From the NCBI GenBank assembly GCA_949297365.1, contig CASFSL010000003.1:1-64000 (forward strand): a stretch of DNA of 64,000 nucleotides, read 5' to 3'. The position numbers were made by a program, and so were the translations under genes. Below, one piece after another: positions 28,232 through 38,058 of this stretch (the stretch's first letter is position 1; each line of letters starts with the position of its first letter). The stretch is from an uncultured Bacteroidales bacterium. GTDB taxonomy: Bacteria > Bacteroidota > Bacteroidia > Bacteroidales > UBA932. Below the pieces are notes generated by a model. It was not told the DNA's origin and searched no databases. It saw nothing but the letters and a program-made list of their open reading frames with translations.

Positions 28232-29188
28232 CTATTTTTCGGGACAATCCCTGTGATTTTTCCGCCAAAGCTGCCAGGAGTTGAAAATATTCTGCCAGAC
28301 AGCATAAGTTCCGGGAGCGAGAGATGATATGGGATTAAGGTACGTATATGCCATCCAGATGGCCAGGACACTGTTTTTCTGTCCAAGAGCCTGACCGGCG
28401 GTAATGGTGTCTCCCAAAGCCTTGCCGGTACGCTTCCCGAACCAGAACTGAACTATGCAGGTCAGCAAAGCCGCGCCTGCTATCATCCACAGGACAGCTG
28501 CGGGAGCCGTGCTGTTGTGCATTGAGCGCACTGTCTGTCCGATAGCGAGCGAGAGAGCCACCGCCCAAAGATAGAACGCGATGCCCGCACGGGCCTTGAA
28601 GAAATCATGGGCCTTGGACCAGATATACTTGAGCAGCACTGCCAGCAGGAAGGGACATATCAGCAGCGGAAAGACCTTTGAGAGAATCTTCAGAAATGCC
28701 GGGAAGAATCCCATTTCGGAATGAACCTCAATCAATGGAAAGACAACGGGCACGAAGACCGCCGCCAGAATATTGGACATGAGGTTATAAAGTGTAATGC
28801 GCGCAGCACTGCCACCCAGTTTGTCCGTGACGACTGCAGCGGCTGTGGCAGTCGGGCATATCAGACATACCATCGCCCCCTCGAATATCTCCCGGTAGAC
28901 CTCATTCATCGGTACCAATATCAGCACGGCCGCCATGGACAGCGCGGAGAGTGTCTGGAAAGCCAGTATGATCCAGTGCCACTTCGTCAGACGCAGGTCC
29001 TTCAGGTCTATCTTGCAGAAAGTCAGAAAAAGCTGTATGAAAATCAGCGACGGTGTCAGGATATCCACCGCCACCCAGACCGCCGGTTTAAGCGGAGCAA
29101 GAAAACCGGCATAGTGAAACAGAAAATATCCGCCGGCACCTGCCGCCATGGCAATCGGAAGAGTCCAGTCCTTGAGAAAACGCATCAT
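28232..29188 (-). CDS. BASS-family (bile acid:sodium symporter-like) transporter
   Basis: 318 residues, about nine or ten hydrophobic helices. The family core VCLICPTATAAAVVTDKLGG and the later ITAGQALGQKNSVLAIWMA correspond to the two crossing-helix motifs of BASS transporters. The start overlaps the thiN stop by 4 bases. Because of that coupling to thiamine pyrophosphokinase, transport of thiamine or a precursor is a testable guess; the sequence itself does not show the substrate. Confidence 0.8.
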   Translation of the reverse strand: MMRFLKDWTLPIAMAAGAGGYFLFHYAGFLAPLKPAVWVAVDILTPSLIFIQLFLTFCKIDLKDLRLTKWHWIILAFQTLSALSMAAVLILVPMNEVYREIFEGAMVCLICPTATAAAVVTDKLGGSAARITLYNLMSNILAAVFVPVVFPLIEVHSEMGFFPAFLKILSKVFPLLICPFLLAVLLKYIWSKAHDFFKARAGIAFYLWAVALSLAIGQTVRSMHNSTAPAAVLWMIAGAALLTCIVQFWFGKRTGKALGDTITAGQALGQKNSVLAIWMAYTYLNPISSLAPGTYAVWQNIFNSWQLWRKNHRDCPEK

Positions 29189-29892
29189 AGCAATATCTCC
29201 GTCTCAAGTCTTCTGCCGTGCCATCCGGGCAGATACATCAGTGCCTTGGCCGGATGACTGAGCCTCAGTTCCACCCTGCCGCCGGAAGCCCTGTTCAAAG
29301 TGGCCTTCCACCACATATCGAACCTGACATCCCCAGTAGGATACTCCAGTCCGGCACTGTCTATTCTGAGGGTCTGGTCAAAGGCAAATATGGAGACCGG
29401 CTGGCCGGCAGGAAGGCTGAACGCACATGAGTCCAGCACCGGCACGAACAAACCGTAATCCGTCATCATGGAAAGCCGCCCGGGAGACCCGCAGGTATAC
29501 AGATACTGCGCGAAGTCGGCCAGCAGGGAGATATTGCCGAGCGTGTGGTCCTCGCGCTTGCCGGTAGCCCCGAACACGGTTATGGAAAAATCCGGAATGT
29601 GCCGGCCTGTGCCCGTCCGAAGCAGGGCGCAGACGCATCGGAAAGCCTTGGAGAGGTCATTGCTTTCCTGCTCCCCTATGTGAAACAGTTGGTCGGAAAG
29701 TTCATCCCTGACATCCTCCGACAGCGAATCCATATCCCCTACCACAAACTCCGGCCGGCGGAACCGCATGAACGAGGCCGCCGCACCATCGCAGCAGACC
29801 ACCACATCACAGGAGAGAAGGCAGTCCCTGACCTCCGCATTGCCGGGGAAATCCCCGTCACACAATATCGCATAAGAAACTGACGGTCTCAT
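29185..29892 (-). CDS. thiN: thiamine diphosphokinase
   Basis: Transfers diphosphate from ATP to thiamine, giving the active cofactor. 235 residues. Signatures are VVCCDGAAASF, FVVGDMDSLS, ESNDLSKAF and FGATGKREDHTLGN, covering the nucleotide and metal sites. It completes the thiamine pathway started by the riboswitch operon 20 kb away. It sits 3 bases after the LptF-Fmt fusion and overlaps the BASS gene. Confidence 0.94.
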   Translation of the reverse strand: MRPSVSYAILCDGDFPGNAEVRDCLLSCDVVVCCDGAAASFMRFRRPEFVVGDMDSLSEDVRDELSDQLFHIGEQESNDLSKAFRCVCALLRTGTGRHIPDFSITVFGATGKREDHTLGNISLLADFAQYLYTCGSPGRLSMMTDYGLFVPVLDSCAFSLPAGQPVSIFAFDQTLRIDSAGLEYPTGDVRFDMWWKATLNRASGGRVELRLSHPAKALMYLPGWHGRRLETEILL

Positions 29893-29895
29893 CCC

Positions 29896-32331
29896 TTATC
29901 CCCTCCATCCTGCCAGGAAACTGGCCGCCGGCATAGTCTTCTTCCCGGGAGCCTGAAGTTCCTTTACAGACAATATGCCCTCACCGCAACGGACTGCAAG
30001 CAGGGACTTGCGGTCAGTATATACCGTACCGGGGGCCGAGTTCAGAAAATCCTCCGGAAGACCGTCTCCGCTTAAAACCTCTGTTTCGTAGATTTTCAAT
30101 TCCAGTTCCTGCCCGCCCATATGCAGGAGGCCGTGAGCACCAGGCTTCGGCGCCAGTCCGCGCACCAGATTGTGTATCCGCTCCGCGCTGAGAGTCCAGT
30201 CTATCTCCCCTGTCTGACGGCTCAGCTTCGGCGCAGACATCCTCGCGGGCGTAAGCGACGAAGTATCCTGCGGCCTCGGCTCCGCCGTTCCGTTGACCAG
30301 CGCGTCAACTGTCCTAAGTACCAGAGCCGCTCCCCTGACCATCAGACGGTCATAAAGTCTGCCGACATTGTCCTCAGGCAGTATCTCCTCCTCTTCCTGG
30401 AACAGAATAGAGCCCGTGTCCATATGCTCGTCCAGCAGGAACGTAGTCACTCCTGTCCGCGTCTCACCGTTGATTACCGCCCAGTTGATGGGGGCCGCTC
30501 CACGGTAAGAGGGAAGAAGGGAGGCATGGAGGTTGAATGTGCCCAGACGGGGCATGGACCACACTGCCTTGGGCAGCATCCTGAATGCCACTACGACGAA
30601 CATATCGGCCCCGAGAGCTTCCAGTTCCTTCAGGAAACCGGGATCCTTGAGGGACTCCGGCTGCAGCAGGGGCAGGGAATGCTCCTCGGCATACTGCTTT
30701 ACAGGGCTGCAGCCTATCTTCTGTCCCCTGCCGATCTTACGGTCAGGAACAGTCACCACGCCCAGAACATTGTATCCGCCCTCCACCAACGCCTTCAATG
30801 ACTCCACGGCAAATTCAGGCGTACCCATGAATACTATACCGGCCTTGCGGCCACGGCTGAGGGCTCCGTCAGTAGAACCCGTACTGCGTTTCTTCTTACT
30901 TCCGAACATCTTGGCGAAAAATTTCTTAACCGGCAGGATATAGGTCTCCATATTGAAGATAGAGGAATCCTTTGTGGATTTCCACGTAAGGAACACACCT
31001 ATGGGCAACAGCACCAGCGAGGATATGAACGCTCCCAGTTCCGGCGATATGACTCCGTCCCTGGCCAGTTTCTTTCCGGAGATATCCACCACCCAGTACA
31101 GCACGAAGAACAGAGCCGACACTATCACCGGCGTACCCAGACCGCCCTTGCGGATAATAGCTCCAAGAGGCGCACCTATAAAGAAAAATATAAAACATGC
31201 GAAGGACAGCGTGAACTTTCTCAGATATTCCAGGTCTATCCTCCTGAGGTAATACGTGTACTGATTCACCTCCCGGTGGTATCCGTTCATGGTCTGAATC
31301 GCTTTCTGAACAGAACTTATGGCATCCTCCACCGCTTTCAGTTCTCTCTGCGTATCAGTCCACTTCAAAGTATCCAACGGGAACACGGCAGCACTGTCCA
31401 GTTCCTTATTCTTGGCCGTATCCAGCTGCCGGGCGGACCTCATGTACAGGTCGTACACCACTTCTTTTCTCTGAAGCGCCGCAGTGGAGTCATAAAGATG
31501 TCCCAGAGAATCCCGGTCTACGCGCAGCTGCTGCAGATTCTTGGCCATGATCTCATTGCCGTAACGGGTATCCTCCGACTTCTGGAACGCATAGTTTTCC
31601 AGGGCTATGACTATCTCCTGCATCTCGAAGTCCACCTGCTGAAGAACATAGGAGGTGTCACGGGCCGTCCTGGTATTGTCCTCCTCGTATGAGACTCCGT
31701 GGTACAGAGTAAACACCAGGGCCTTCTTGTCGGGCGTGGAGCGTATCATACCTGAGTCAGCAACGGCCAGAGATATATTGCCCTTGTTCTTGGTGTGATT
31801 GTAGATCATCACATCGTACATCATGCCGGTTTCCTTGTTGTTGGAGTTGACTCTGAGAGAATAACCGTCGATACCGTTGTAGAATGTACCGGTCGGTATC
31901 TTTATCTCGTCCTTTGTCCGGGCAATATCGTACTGCAGGGTATATATCTTATTGTATGCCAGCGGTATAAGGTTGTTGGACACAAAGAACGCCGCCACAC
32001 TGATGGCAAATGCCACGAATATCAGCGGGAGGAATATTCTCTGGAGGGAGATTCCGGCGGCCTTCATGGCCAGCAGTTCGTTGTTCTCTCCCAGGTTGCC
32101 GAATGTCATGATGGAGGCCAGCAGAGTGGCCAGCGGCATGGAGAGCGGCAGGATGGTCGCCGAGCCCCAGCCCAGGAACTCCATGATGACCCAGAAACTC
32201 AGACCCTTGCCCACCAGTTCGTCGATGTAAAGCCACAGGAACTGCATCACCAGTATGAATACGGTGATGAAGAACGTCATCACGAACGGTCCCAGAAAGG
32301 ACTTGAGTATGAACAGGTCGAGTTTCTTCAT
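29896..32331 (-). CDS. fusion: LptF/LptG-family permease + methionyl-tRNA formyltransferase
   Basis: 811 residues in one uninterrupted frame. Residues 1-455 are an LptF/G permease: FILKSFLGPF, helices at about 12-35, 55-78, 98-120, then a periplasmic beta-jellyroll, and helices at 372-450 with IFFFIGAPLGAIIRKGGLG. A basic linker follows (456-496, FGSKKKRS). Residues 497-811 are formyltransferase: GIVFMGTPEFAV, FNLHASLLPSYRGAAPINW with Asn600 and His602, and LDEHMDTG with Asp638, matching the catalytic Asn/His/Asp triad. Both functions look intact. The Fmt part would face the cytoplasm. Met475 could give a free Fmt by internal initiation. lptG is at 35026, so the Lpt pair is complete. Confidence 0.92.
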   Translation of the reverse strand: MKKLDLFILKSFLGPFVMTFFITVFILVMQFLWLYIDELVGKGLSFWVIMEFLGWGSATILPLSMPLATLLASIMTFGNLGENNELLAMKAAGISLQRIFLPLIFVAFAISVAAFFVSNNLIPLAYNKIYTLQYDIARTKDEIKIPTGTFYNGIDGYSLRVNSNNKETGMMYDVMIYNHTKNKGNISLAVADSGMIRSTPDKKALVFTLYHGVSYEEDNTRTARDTSYVLQQVDFEMQEIVIALENYAFQKSEDTRYGNEIMAKNLQQLRVDRDSLGHLYDSTAALQRKEVVYDLYMRSARQLDTAKNKELDSAAVFPLDTLKWTDTQRELKAVEDAISSVQKAIQTMNGYHREVNQYTYYLRRIDLEYLRKFTLSFACFIFFFIGAPLGAIIRKGGLGTPVIVSALFFVLYWVVDISGKKLARDGVISPELGAFISSLVLLPIGVFLTWKSTKDSSIFNMETYILPVKKFFAKMFGSKKKRSTGSTDGALSRGRKAGIVFMGTPEFAVESLKALVEGGYNVLGVVTVPDRKIGRGQKIGCSPVKQYAEEHSLPLLQPESLKDPGFLKELEALGADMFVVVAFRMLPKAVWSMPRLGTFNLHASLLPSYRGAAPINWAVINGETRTGVTTFLLDEHMDTGSILFQEEEEILPEDNVGRLYDRLMVRGAALVLRTVDALVNGTAEPRPQDTSSLTPARMSAPKLSRQTGEIDWTLSAERIHNLVRGLAPKPGAHGLLHMGGQELELKIYETEVLSGDGLPEDFLNSAPGTVYTDRKSLLAVRCGEGILSVKELQAPGKKTMPAASFLAGWRG

Positions 32332-32351
32332 CCTGCAGAACAGTATATCTG

Positions 32352-34979
32352 TCAGCCTATCTTATTGACGGATTCAATCATGGCTGTCAAAGCCGCTACA
32401 AGTCCGTCAGGATCCTTGCCTCCTGCGGTAGCCAGGAAGGGCTGACCGCCTCCGCCTCCCTTGATATGCGCTGCGGCGGCCTTCACATCCTTGCCTGCAT
32501 GAGCTCCGGCAGCCACCAGGTCATCCGTGTACATCATAAGCAGCGAGGGCTTGCGGTCGGGGGTCATAATCGCGGCAACCATGGCAGCGCGTGTATTCTC
32601 CTTCCGCAGTTCAAAGGCCACTTCCTTAATAATATCGGGCGAATATACTCCGGTCAGGGAGAACAGACGCACTCCGGAAGGTGTCATCTCGCTCTTTTCC
32701 GTCAGGTTCTTCTTGAGGGCAGCGGCTCTCTCACGGGCCACCTCCTCGAGGGAATGGCGGAATGAATCATTCTCGGCCACGAGCTTCTTGATACCGGTGA
32801 TAATATCCGGGGTATTCTCCAGGAAGGAGCGCACTGCGTTGATCTGGTCCTCGACTCCGTCGAAAAGGTCCTCCACATAACTGCCCGTAACGGCCTGTAT
32901 CCTGCGTACACCTGCCGCAACGGCCGACTCAGAGACTATCTTGAGCATACCGATACGGCCGGTCGAGGAAGTGTGGGTTCCTCCGCAGAGCTCCACTGAG
33001 TCTCCGAAGCGGATTACGCGCACCTTGTCCCCGTATTTTTCTCCGAAAAGAGCCATCGCACCCATGTCCTTTGCCTCGGCTATAGGCACATCCCGGAACT
33101 CCTGACGGGGATAATCCTCACGTATAAGACGGTTGACCATCCTCTCCACCTCGCGCAGTTTCTCAGCGGATATCTTCTCGTAGTGAGAAAAGTCAAAACG
33201 GAAATACGCGGGGCATACGTAGGAACCCTTCTGCTCTATATGAGTACCCAGCACGGAACGCAGGGCCTGGTGCAGCAGGTGGGTGGCCGAATGGTTGTTG
33301 GCCGTCTCCTGCCGTTTCTGAGCGTCCACACAGGCGTGGAACACCGCCTCCGGCTCCGAAGGAATCCGGTCCGCGATATGTATACTGAGATTATTCTCCT
33401 TGATAGTGTTGAGAACAAGCGTCTTCTCACCTGAGGGAGAGACTATGGTTCCGCAGTCTCCGACCTGTCCGCCGCTCTCGGCGTAGAAGGGAGTACGGTC
33501 GAATACCAACTGGTAGACCTCCTTGCCCTTGGTCTTGACGGTACGGTACTTGACTATGCGCACATCCGTCTCCAGAGTGTCGTAACCTACGAAAGAATGA
33601 TCCTCTGTCCCGTCCAGCACCATCCAGTCTCCGGCCTCCACTGCGGCGGCGTTACGGGCCCTGGCCTTCTGCTTTCCAAGCTCGGTCTCAAACTCCTCCA
33701 GGTCGATAGTATATCCGTTTTCCCTGGCAATCAGTTCGCTCAGGTCAATCGGGAAACCGAATGTATCATAAAGTACGAATGCATCCTTGCCGGAGATGCG
33801 CCTGGTATCCGCACAGCGTTCCATCACCGCGTTGATGAGCCCTATACCCTTGGCCAGGGTGCGCAGGAAAGCCTCCTCCTCCTCGCGGATGACCTTCTCG
33901 ATGAGCGTCTGCTGCCGGCTGAGTTCGGGATAGGCATCACCCATGACATCCACCAGCACCGGTACCAGACGGCACAGGAAAGGCTCTGTGAATCCCAGGA
34001 AAGTATAACCGTAACGGACTGCCCTGCGCAGGATGCGCCGGATGACGTAACCGGCCTTGACGTTGGAAGGCAGCTGCCCGTCAGCTATCGAGAACGAGAT
34101 GGCCCTGATATGGTCCGCCACAACTCTCATCGCCACGTCCACCTGCTCTGACTCCGCACCGTACTTGTGTCCGGACAGCTCTCCTATCTTGGCGATGATA
34201 CTCTGGAACATATCGCCATCGTAGTTGCTCTTGTTGCCGTTGACGGCCATTACCAGACGCTCGAAGCCCATGCCGGTATCCACATGCCTGTGCGGCAAAA
34301 GCTCCAGAGAGCCGTCAGCCTTGCGGTTGTACTGGATAAACACCAGATTCCATATCTCGATGACCAGAGGATCGCTCTTGTTGACCAGTTCCCGACCGGG
34401 CACGGCCTGTCTGTCCCTATCGTCCCTGAGGTCGATATGTATCTCGCTGCACGGGCCGCACGGACCTGTATCGCCCATCTCCCAGAAATTGTCCTTCTTG
34501 TTGCCGTAGAGGATACGGTCCTCGGGCAGATACTGCTTCCATATCTCCAGAGCCTCGGAGTCGGGACCCAAGCCGTCCTTGTCATACCCCTCGAACACCG
34601 TTGCATAAAGACGCTCCTTATCCAGTTTGTACACCTCGGTCAGAAGTTCCCATGCCCATGCAATCGCCTCTTTCTTGAAATAGTCGCCGAAACTCCAGTT
34701 GCCCAGCATCTCGAACATGGTGTGATGATAGGAATCGTGGCCCACCTCCTCCAGGTCATTGTGCTTGCCACTCACTCTTAGGCACTTCTGGCTGTCCGCC
34801 ACCCTTGGATAGAGTATGGGAGAATTACCGAGGAACCAGTCCTTGAACTGATTCATACCGGCATTGGTGAACATAAGCGTGGGATCTCCCTTTACGACCA
34901 TGGGCGCAGAGGGAACTATCTTGTGACCCTTCGATGCGAAGAAGTCCAGGAACTGCTGTCTAATCTCTTTTGAAGTCAT
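32352..34979 (-). CDS. alaS: alanyl-tRNA synthetase
   Basis: 875 residues from [19 protein letters not shown], the standard start. Class II catalytic core: [21 protein letters not shown] and [16 protein letters not shown]. The editing domain has the zinc/catalytic residues [10 protein letters not shown] and [13 protein letters not shown]. The C-terminal DHHA1 region ends [16 protein letters not shown]. All domains are intact. A TATCTTTG element lies 28 bases upstream, so it has its own promoter although it is between lptG and the lptF-fmt gene. An extension to 35060 overlaps lptG and is rejected. Confidence 0.97.
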
Positions 34980-35006
34980 ATTAATGAACTGATCAGTTGT
35001 AAACTG

Positions 35007-35014
35007 CAAAGATA
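35007..35014 (-). promoter_or_regulatory. -7 promoter element of alaS
   Basis: TATCTTTG on the minus strand in the 46-bp gap between lptG and alaS. Confidence 0.65.
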
Positions 35015-35025
35015 CATATTTCTGT

Positions 35026-36129
35026 TTATTTCGGAGCCATACGGTAGAGGACTGCCGCAATCACCGCATACAGGATATTGGGCAGCCACATGGCCAGCCA
35101 TGGCGGGAGAGTATCGGTTATCACGAACATCTGGCTGAAACGCAGGAACAGGATGTAGGAGAAACTCAGTCCGATACCCAGTCCCAGGTTAAGTCCTATG
35201 CCTCCGCGCCGTTTCTTGGATGAAAGCGACACTCCTATCAGTGTCAGGATAAATGCGGAGAACGGCACTGCGAAACGGGTGTGTTTCTCGATAAGGGAGT
35301 ATTTGACCATACTGTCCCCGCGCATCCTCTGCATATCGATAAGATCCTGCAGCTCCTTATAGCTGAGAGTCTCCACTGTATTTTCCCTTCGGTAAAAATC
35401 ATCCAGCTTGAGACTGATGACTGTATCCAGCTGCTTTCCGAAAGTTATCGTCTGCTGCGAGGTGGTGTAGTCCCTGAGAGTATAGTTCTTCAGCCGCCAT
35501 CCCCCGGTAGTGGAATCCCAGGCCGCGCTCTCCGCCGAGAGCTTGGACAGCAGGTGACTGTCCTCGGTGGTCTCCAGAGTGAACTTGTAGGCGGTATTGT
35601 TCCACGTACTGAACGACTCCACATAGACGAACTCCCCGGGCGCAATCTGATAATGTATGTTGCGGTTGGTATTGTAGAACTTCTGTCCTTTTATATACTG
35701 CTCCTCAAAGGCCAGCCTTTTCTCATTTGCGCTGGGTATTACGAAAAGATTGAGGGAGAGACTCATCGCCGCGATCAGCAAGGCTGACAGGAAATACGGA
35801 TACATCAGCCTGCCGAAACTGACTCCCCCGGACAGCATGGCTATGATCTCACTGTTGCCGGCCAGCTTCGAAGTGAAAAAAATCACCGTGATAAAGACGA
35901 AAAGCGGACTGAACATATTGATGAAGTACGGGATGAAGTTGAAGTAATAGTCCACCACTATCGCCTTCAGGGGAGCCTCCTTGTCCACGAAGTCATCTAT
36001 CTTCTCGCTTATGTCGAAGATGATCACGATTACGATGATGAGCAGCAGAGCCATAAAGAAAGTTCCGATGAACTTCCTTATGATGTACCTGTCCAGGAGT
36101 CTTACTTTAAATGTACTCAGTATGTTCAT
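35026..36129 (-). CDS. LptF/LptG-family LPS export permease
   Basis: 367 residues. Inner-membrane part of the Lpt transporter that lifts lipopolysaccharide to the periplasmic bridge. Helices occur at about 18-40, 60-85, 100-122 and three near the C-terminus; the periplasmic domain lies between about 130 and 275. Typical segments are [34 protein letters not shown] and [26 protein letters not shown] (partly quoted). It is probably the LptG partner of the fused LptF at 29896. It follows tgt by 11 bases. Confidence 0.92.
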
Positions 36130-36140
36130 GCTCGCTTCGG

Positions 36141-37271
36141 TTATAGGCGGTTCTGCAGTTTCTTAACCGCCGCTTCCTTCCACTGGTAAAAATCTCCGTC
36201 CTCTATATGCTGCCTCGCTTTTGAGACGACATCCAGATAGAATGCCAGATTGTGCTCGCTGGCAATCTGTGCGGCAAGCATCTCCCCGGCAATGAAAAGA
36301 TGACGCAGATAAGCTTTCGTGTAGGCGGTGTCAACAAAGGACGTGCCATTAGGATCTATCGGAGAAAAATCCCTCTCCCATTTCCGGTTACGCATATTCA
36401 TCCGGCCCTCCCATGTGAAGAGCATCCCGTTGCGGCCGTTGCGGGTGGGCATCACGCAGTCGAACATGTCGATACCGCGGGCAATGCCCTCCAGCAGGTT
36501 CTCAGGTGTACCGACTCCCATCAGATACCGTGGCCGGTCCTTGGGCAGTATCGGATGCACCACCTCTATCATCTCATACATCACTTCCGTAGGTTCTCCT
36601 ACCGAAAGCCCGCCTATGGCATAGCCCTCACGGTCAAACGAGGCCACGAACTCAGCCGCCTCAGCCCTCATATCAGGATACACACAGCCTTGTATGATGG
36701 GGAAAAATGTCTGAGAATACCCGTAAAGCGGCTCGGTACTGTCAAAGCGGGCGATTCCCCTTTTAAGCCACTCTTTGGTAAGATCCAGGGACTTCCGGGC
36801 ATAAGCGCGGTCAGCGTCTCCGGGCGTGCATTCGTCCAGAGCCATGATGATATCGGCTCCTATCACGCGCTGAGTATCCACATTGTTCTCGGGGGTGAAA
36901 CTATGGGCCGAACCGTCTATGTGCGAGCGGAAAGTACATCCTTCGGGTGTGAGCTTGCGGCTGTCCGCCAGGGAGAACACCTGGAATCCGCCGCTGTCGG
37001 TAAGTATCGGACGGTCCCAGCCTATGAAACTGTGCAGGCCTCCGGCCTCCCTGAGCACGTCCAGTCCCGGACGCAGATACAGATGGTACGTATTGCCCAG
37101 GATAATCTGAGCCTGTATATCGCTTTTAAGATCCCGATGATACACGCCCTTGACCGAACCGACAGTCCCCACCGGCATGAATATCGGTGTCTCTATCGTC
37201 CCGTGATCTGTCTCTATCCTGCCTCTGCGGGCATTGGACTGCGGATCTGTCTTAAGCAACGTAAATCTCAT
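36141..37271 (-). CDS. tgt: queuine tRNA-ribosyltransferase (tRNA-guanine transglycosylase)
   Basis: Exchanges the wobble guanine of GUN anticodons for preQ1. 376 residues from MRFTLLKTDPQS. Catalytic and substrate motifs are ILTDSGGFQVFSL, AIGGLSVGEPTEVM and FDCVMPTRNGRNGMLF. In the zinc region the usual CxCxxC is replaced by DPNGTSFVDTAYTKAYLRHLF, with no cysteines, while the final His remains. This looks like a zinc-site variant, perhaps general in the phylum. The start at 37271 is preferred over one 10 codons upstream inside the preceding lipoprotein gene. Confidence 0.95.
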   Translation of the reverse strand: MRFTLLKTDPQSNARRGRIETDHGTIETPIFMPVGTVGSVKGVYHRDLKSDIQAQIILGNTYHLYLRPGLDVLREAGGLHSFIGWDRPILTDSGGFQVFSLADSRKLTPEGCTFRSHIDGSAHSFTPENNVDTQRVIGADIIMALDECTPGDADRAYARKSLDLTKEWLKRGIARFDSTEPLYGYSQTFFPIIQGCVYPDMRAEAAEFVASFDREGYAIGGLSVGEPTEVMYEMIEVVHPILPKDRPRYLMGVGTPENLLEGIARGIDMFDCVMPTRNGRNGMLFTWEGRMNMRNRKWERDFSPIDPNGTSFVDTAYTKAYLRHLFIAGEMLAAQIASEHNLAFYLDVVSKARQHIEDGDFYQWKEAAVKKLQNRL

Positions 37272-37275
37272 CGGA

Positions 37276-38058
37276 CTATTCCCTCCAGAATTCTGTTTCA
37301 CCCATGTAGTTTACCGTCACCTCGGTGCCTGACATGGCCGGAGACAGCCGTACCTCTATATCCTCCGAACGCTGCATCCCTCCGGATATATCCATATGAA
37401 GATCGAATCCACCGTTGAAAAAATGAAACAAAGGTCCGCGGCTGAGTACCGCCATCGTCGGCTCCGCTGTCGAGAAAACGACTTCCACCACGGTATTACC
37501 TTCCCGGCTGGAAGTATGTTCTGTATAATCGCCCTCAACGGTCACCTCGTAGACATAACCATACCCGCACGAATCGGCAAGAGCCACATGCATCTCCATG
37601 GTATTCAAGGAATAGGGAGCATCCAGCCTGGTTGTCTGAAAGTCCACATCCACATCCCACTCATCCGGGCCGGTGCAGGAGACTGTAGCCGCCACCCCGT
37701 TGAAAGTACATTCCCAGACAGAACCTTCGTCGAGAATGGAATTACCGTCAAATACAAACTCGCCCCGTCCATCGGCAAGAACGCATTTATCGTCGTAAAG
37801 ACGCACCTTATACTCAGGAAAATACATATCCTCCAGCTCATATCTTCCATATTGGTCGGCTCTCACGTACATATCCACCTTCAAAGCCCTGTCCAACACT
37901 GAAAGAACCGGAGAGAGCACATAGTCACCGGTAACGCAATAGACGTAGTAAGCCTCCTCGACAATATTTACATACCTCTCCTCCGAACTGTCCACCTTGC
38001 ATCCCGCCACTGCCATAAGAGCCGCTGCCGCCAACCATATCTTTATAGCATTTTTCAT
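37276..38058 (-). CDS. hypothetical lipoprotein
   Basis: 260 residues. The signal peptide has lipobox AVAGC (Cys near residue 20). The body is beta-rich with several Tyr/Asp-rich strands (YVNIVEEAYYVYC near residue 30) and four more cysteines. No known family is recognised. It lies 11 bases after an outer-membrane barrel gene and 4 bases before tgt, so it is probably co-transcribed with both. A partnership with the barrel is inferred only from position. Confidence 0.65.
   Translation of the reverse strand: MKNAIKIWLAAAALMAVAGCKVDSSEERYVNIVEEAYYVYCVTGDYVLSPVLSVLDRALKVDMYVRADQYGRYELEDMYFPEYKVRLYDDKCVLADGRGEFVFDGNSILDEGSVWECTFNGVAATVSCTGPDEWDVDVDFQTTRLDAPYSLNTMEMHVALADSCGYGYVYEVTVEGDYTEHTSSREGNTVVEVVFSTAEPTMAVLSRGPLFHFFNGGFDLHMDISGGMQRSEDIEVRLSPAMSGTEVTVNYMGETEFWRE

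Follow-up and report, generated by a model that had tools for sequence, protein, structure and literature searches.

A predicted fusion of an LptF/LptG-family permease to methionyl-tRNA formyltransferase in a family of gut Bacteroidales

Introduction

Methionyl-tRNA formyltransferase (Fmt) is a general enzyme of translation and is regarded as soluble; the Fmt chains that we found in the PDB are free-standing proteins of 314-322 residues. The permeases LptF and LptG, which have both ends facing the cytoplasm, are subunits of the lipopolysaccharide (LPS) exporter LptB2FG. Joined proteins that touch on one or the other of these fields are known. LysX of mycobacteria couples a membrane lipid protein to a lysyl-tRNA synthetase, and both halves serve one pathway. 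ArnA uses a sugar nucleotide substrate, and its formyltransferase domain acts on aminoarabinose. In cyanobacteria, aminoacyl-tRNA synthetases have repeatedly become membrane-anchored by fusion to the CAAD domain, and the GluRS-CAAD fusion probably came from neighbouring genes (PMC4893482). A published description of a permease joined to Fmt was not found among the open-licence papers that we searched, judged by titles and listings.

Here we describe such a gene in a window of 64,000 nucleotides, the whole stretch of DNA that was analysed. Its enzyme part shares with E. coli Fmt (1FMT/2FMT, TIGR00460) the full two-domain enzyme, the catalytic residues, a TM-score of 0.90 and about 40% identity, but lies at the C-terminus of a membrane protein. 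The permease part shares a near-full LptF_LptG profile with LptF/LptG, and a second permease and LptB are encoded in the genome. However, it places 455 residues before the enzyme, compared with 366 in 6MIT chain F, has a helical insert at residues 266-325 and, unlike LptF/LptG of LptB2FG, carries a 315-residue enzyme on its C-terminus. The likeness to the CAAD systems is that of a tRNA enzyme anchored to the membrane by repeated fusion; the CAAD anchor is a CURT1-like domain, whereas here the anchor would be a transporter subunit and the enzyme Fmt. ArnA likewise has an Fmt-like domain in lipid A biology, but the fusion scores far under the ArnA cut-off. As in LysX, a membrane lipid protein is joined to a tRNA enzyme; unlike in LysX, we know of no pathway that the two halves share.

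Results

The fusion gene lies in a run of same-strand genes (29185-37301) in which tRNA and translation genes (tgt, alaS, fmt) are interspersed with LPS export permeases. The features are as follows.

29185..29892, reverse strand: thiamine pyrophosphokinase, directly downstream of the fusion
29896..32331, reverse strand: lpt-fmt fusion gene, 811 codons plus stop, ATG start (from the ORF, domains and relatives)
29899..30840, reverse strand: methionyl-tRNA formyltransferase domain, residues 498-811, with Asn600, His602 and Asp638 (from Pfam, NCBIfam and structure matches)
30841..30966, reverse strand: junction, residues 456-497, with a basic helix (461-476) and a low-confidence tether (478-493) (from the model and relatives' linkers)
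30967..32331, reverse strand: LptF/LptG-family permease domain, residues 1-455 (from Pfam and the AlphaFold model; topology inferred from the family)
32352..35060, reverse strand: alaS, alanyl-tRNA synthetase, directly upstream of the fusion
35026..36129, reverse strand: a further LptF/LptG-family permease that leans towards LptG and presumably partners the fusion in the export complex
36141..37301, reverse strand: tgt, queuine tRNA-ribosyltransferase

Pfam matched the fusion to LptF_LptG (residues 8-451; profile positions 3-353 of 353, 249 bits), Formyl_trans_N (499-670) and Formyl_trans_C (702-808), all far over their cut-offs, and to no further family at E 0.001; CAAD/CURT1 was absent. The NCBIfam model of Fmt, TIGR00460, scored it at 252.4 bits (cut-off 201.5) over profile positions 3-304 of 315. 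The ORF, Pfam and TIGR00460 therefore agree with the preliminary description, which had reported one 811-residue frame containing a complete permease and a complete Fmt. For the permease, NCBIfam scored LptF at 146 (cut-off 230) above LptG at 106 (cut-off 240). Both are below cut-off and therefore we file it only under the joint LptF/LptG family. The second permease leans the other way (LptG 181, LptF 144, both below the curated cut-offs), and LptB was found in the same genome with 365 bits; together with the fused permease these would presumably form an export complex. The start codon of alaS is uncertain, the listed TTG overlapping the upstream gene.

The proposed catalytic residues Asn600, His602 and Asp638, which presumably equate to residues 106, 108 and 144 of E. 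coli Fmt, proved invariant in 50/50 fusions and 26/26 separate Fmt copies of alignment A2, for which 50 of the 74 available fused rows were taken after near-duplicates were dropped. The GRG loop of the Fmt domain was likewise invariant in all 50 fusions. Fmt structures were the top rows of a Foldseek search, with E. coli Fmt matched at a TM-score of 0.90 by target and 40-42% identity.

The preliminary description had also raised the matter of a separate fmt elsewhere in the genome. A PF00551 profile search of the genome found no second Fmt: its two matches were the fusion and a 202-aa frame whose best family is PurN (146.8 bits, cut-off 150.1; fmt 64.3). Moreover, no second long Fmt match was present among those listed for 24 fused genomes, down to E of about 2e-5. 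The genome encodes a deformylase and one tRNA-Met with a GGGCTCATAACCC anticodon arm, which we take to be an initiator hallmark. By these signs the fused Fmt would formylate initiator Met-tRNA.

The frame is shared by relatives. Among 59 genomes searched, 17 of the 18 other members of the genus carry it open and full-length, with 67-95% identity, and six further genera of the family each contribute one genome that carries it. The remaining genome of the genus (G005, 81% complete) had neither a permease nor an Fmt match. Since the junction is open in 17/18 relatives, read error is in practice ruled out and the frame across the junction, as first described, is genuine. We therefore rejected assembly error. 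Although the source genome is in 51 contigs, an assembly or frameshift artefact is scarcely conceivable given that the junction is likewise open in many genomes, with named fused records from different hosts and projects. These include Candidatus Cryptobacteroides faecigallinarum and Muribaculum sp. An289 (L142), the latter not labelled as a MAG in its title.

Across 398 genomes of the family, the fusion was found without a stop in at least 145 (the source genome included) among 150 rows listed, two of the 145 covering only residues 1-757 and 1-750. Five of the 150 have one or two stops inside and all of these belong to genus g4. A recheck of 31 genomes revealed a broken frame in G410 and, in the large genus g46, several loci that end at a contig edge (G374, G250, G395 and G329). 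G335 (95% complete) and G104 had no permease-Fmt match, which may reflect a missing contig or loss. At the level of sequence, then, the two-domain fusion is genuine and widely shared among relatives.

The genes are separate but adjacent in Bacteroidales bacterium CF (a complete genome), Tidjanibacter, Alistipes and Odoribacter, as in many other relatives, where they often overlap; they are not neighbours everywhere, G060 and G065 having them on different contigs. Overall, 154 loci, duplicates and edge-cut loci included, were classed as 86 fused, 39 split and 29 other. Outside the family, no fusion was seen among the matches listed for 146 genomes from the order's other families (149 order genomes searched) or for 117 other genomes of the phylum; a few genomes in these surveys had no match to the permease, and a fusion interrupted by a long insert might escape detection. 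The nearest case outside the family, G048, has two separate genes with 24 bases between them. Thus the statement that the two parts are normally separate stands for the sampled Bacteroidota at large, but fails within the family, where the fused form is common. Two long frames came up in the wider searches. That of 922 aa in G454 was rejected as another fusion, being a permease, a stop and then a separate further frame, and G631 has a 948-aa frame at its Fmt match.

AlphaFold, given a 120-row alignment, modelled the two domains confidently (pLDDT 92.5, as against 62.4 with a 14-row alignment). At a pTM of 0.61, the model does not fix how they sit against each other. The permease is predicted to have six long helices (3-41, 46-82, 96-138, 327-392, 399-424 and 430-454), with a beta domain (strands 157-243) and a helical insert (266-325). 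The six helices and periplasmic beta domain by which LptF/LptG are recognised were found in the predicted model only. The 50 Foldseek rows shown included no LptF/G chain, whereas a sequence search does find LptF chains. Because both ends of LptF/LptG permeases are cytoplasmic, the enzyme would be suspended on the cytoplasmic side of the inner membrane; in the model about 40 residues separate it from the last membrane helix. The cytoplasmic placement of Fmt proposed earlier is thus what a six-helix LptF/G fold implies, the topology coming from family knowledge and the model.

The junction is modelled as a basic amphipathic helix (461-476) followed by a stretch with pLDDT <50 (478-493). To compare junctions we used 81 fusions, the 86 fused loci minus five duplicates, among which some near-identical rows remain. 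The span from permease to Fmt is 26-43 residues and is 27 in 46/81, while the net charge of the linker is +3 to +10 in every one. The 46 linkers of 27 residues are more amphipathic than shuffled versions (median z 2.3 vs 1.4). By eye, the unfused permeases of relatives mostly have similar basic tails, and so the linker is probably the permease's old C-terminal tail.

A further suggestion had been that Met475 gives free Fmt by internal initiation. As a conserved feature this did not hold up: an aligned Met is present in only 5/81 fusions (L003, L004, L005, L008 and L013). We scanned for start codons from 12 codons before the linker through the first Fmt codons. At least one ATG occurs there in 70/81 fusions, often at -7, -5, -20 or -22 from the Fmt domain, whereas ATG is absent in 11/81 and ATG, GTG and TTG are all absent in 5/81. 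Met502 (in IVFMG), present in all 81 junctions, was left out of the scan because a start there would lose the first strand of Fmt. Nor was there excess synonymous conservation at the junction: with an expectation specific to pair and residue, and with pairs of at least 0.75 synonymous identity excluded, identity was 0.83-1.11 of that expected (7th to 86th percentile), compared with up to the 95th percentile before correction. The strongest stretch of the gene was codons 15-46 (about 32194-32289), at up to 1.40 of expected in the genus of the window. Single species might nevertheless initiate internally.

The split loci bear on how the fusion arose. At most of them the closest ATG of fmt overlaps the end of the permease gene or lies no more than about 30 nt beyond it; no fmt ATG was found in four, the genes are more than 1 kb apart in L139, L148 and L151, and L059 and L067 are broken frames. 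Permease and fmt share a frame with stops between them at L035, L039, L046-L048, L113 and L115-L118. A tree of 101 rows, 65 of them fused, was built after removal of 14 duplicates or near-duplicates and of short-match rows. It requires at least three changes between fused and split states, or four without the long row L070, and a single clade of all 65 fusions was rejected (p-AU 1.7e-6, L070 excluded). This hinges on L049, which comes from one 80% complete MAG (G099), because without it a single origin is not rejected (p 0.10). Therefore, if that MAG is sound, the tree points to two or more independent fusions.

Some LptF/LptG permeases are themselves extended. The permease frames of L141, L154, L133 and L145 are 638-658 aa long, with 170-191 residues beyond the Pfam domain, and in L070 a tail of about 144 residues precedes a separate fmt. 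The tails of the first four, all from Bacteroidota, matched no further family above cut-off. Other open frames of 600-713 aa suggest that long permease tails are common.

Discussion

We consider it likely that the gene encodes one bifunctional chain, derived from neighbouring operon genes, in which Fmt is tethered to the membrane and both halves keep their old jobs. The N-terminal half would serve the lipopolysaccharide exporter LptB2FG as an ordinary LptF/LptG-family subunit. The last third, attached to the basic C-terminal tail of the permease, would be the sole methionyl-tRNA formyltransferase of the cell and would formylate initiator Met-tRNA on the cytoplasmic side of the inner membrane. 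Such a chain could have arisen when co-directional neighbours that overlapped, or nearly so, lost the intervening stop, and this may have happened more than once in the family if MAG G099, with its isolated fusion, is reliable. The tether may be tolerated, or mildly useful through a fixed 1:1 supply, rather than a regulatory link. That a single chain is made in vivo, is active, sits at the membrane and joins the export complex is what we infer from sequence and models.

The long chain might alternatively be made and soluble Fmt then released, by proteolysis of the tether or by internal translation starts. The low-confidence stretch 478-493 could be cut, an ATG lies in the scanned stretch of 70/81 fusions and Met502 in 81/81 junctions, and split relatives begin their separate fmt at the same place. 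Yet the ATG position is not conserved (the Met475-aligned Met in 5/81), 11/81 fusions have no ATG and 5/81 no ATG, GTG or TTG in that stretch, and synonymous conservation at the junction stays within the 7th-86th percentile, against as much as 1.4-fold near the real start; we regard release as unlikely. Still less probable, in our judgement, is a tether that is itself functional, localising formylation to ribosomes making envelope proteins or coupling initiation to LPS export. The fusion is kept across many species and would be recurrent if L049 is sound, the linker is basic and of 27 residues in 46/81, the gene run mixes tgt, alaS and fmt with lpt genes, and CAAD anchoring of aminoacyl-tRNA synthetases offers the nearest precedent (PMC4893482). 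However, genes that lie side by side can easily fuse more than once for that reason alone, relatives manage with the two genes apart, and the linker is not necessarily an adaptation to fusion because the permeases of unfused relatives, by eye, also carry basic tails. Equally doubtful is the stronger proposal that formylation in a large clade of gut Bacteroidales is obligately membrane-bound in the LPS exporter, links initiation to outer-membrane assembly and was selected repeatedly.

The Fmt-like part might instead have been redirected to formylate a sugar of LPS or lipid A, as in ArnA, whose formyltransferase domain is a structural relative; the partner in the fusion is, after all, an LPS exporter. 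The NCBIfam scores led us to judge this function unlikely (fmt 252 vs ArnA 140, with a cut-off of 777). Moreover, this is the only Fmt found, while a deformylase and an initiator-type tRNA remain, and the GRG loop is conserved in 50/50 fusions, which makes such a role highly improbable.

The bifunctional chain that we favour has some wider bearing. As far as the searches reach, a large clade has Fmt only inside a membrane transporter and so offers a natural experiment, asking whether formylation tolerates, or profits from, fixation at the membrane. It is also a hazard for annotation, in that fmt may seem absent from carrier genomes or the permease may be misnamed, and the carriers are a group of mostly uncultured gut Bacteroidales. 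Lastly, genus g2 shows the fused and split forms together (L052 in G067 and L021 in G019), which is useful for dating the change.
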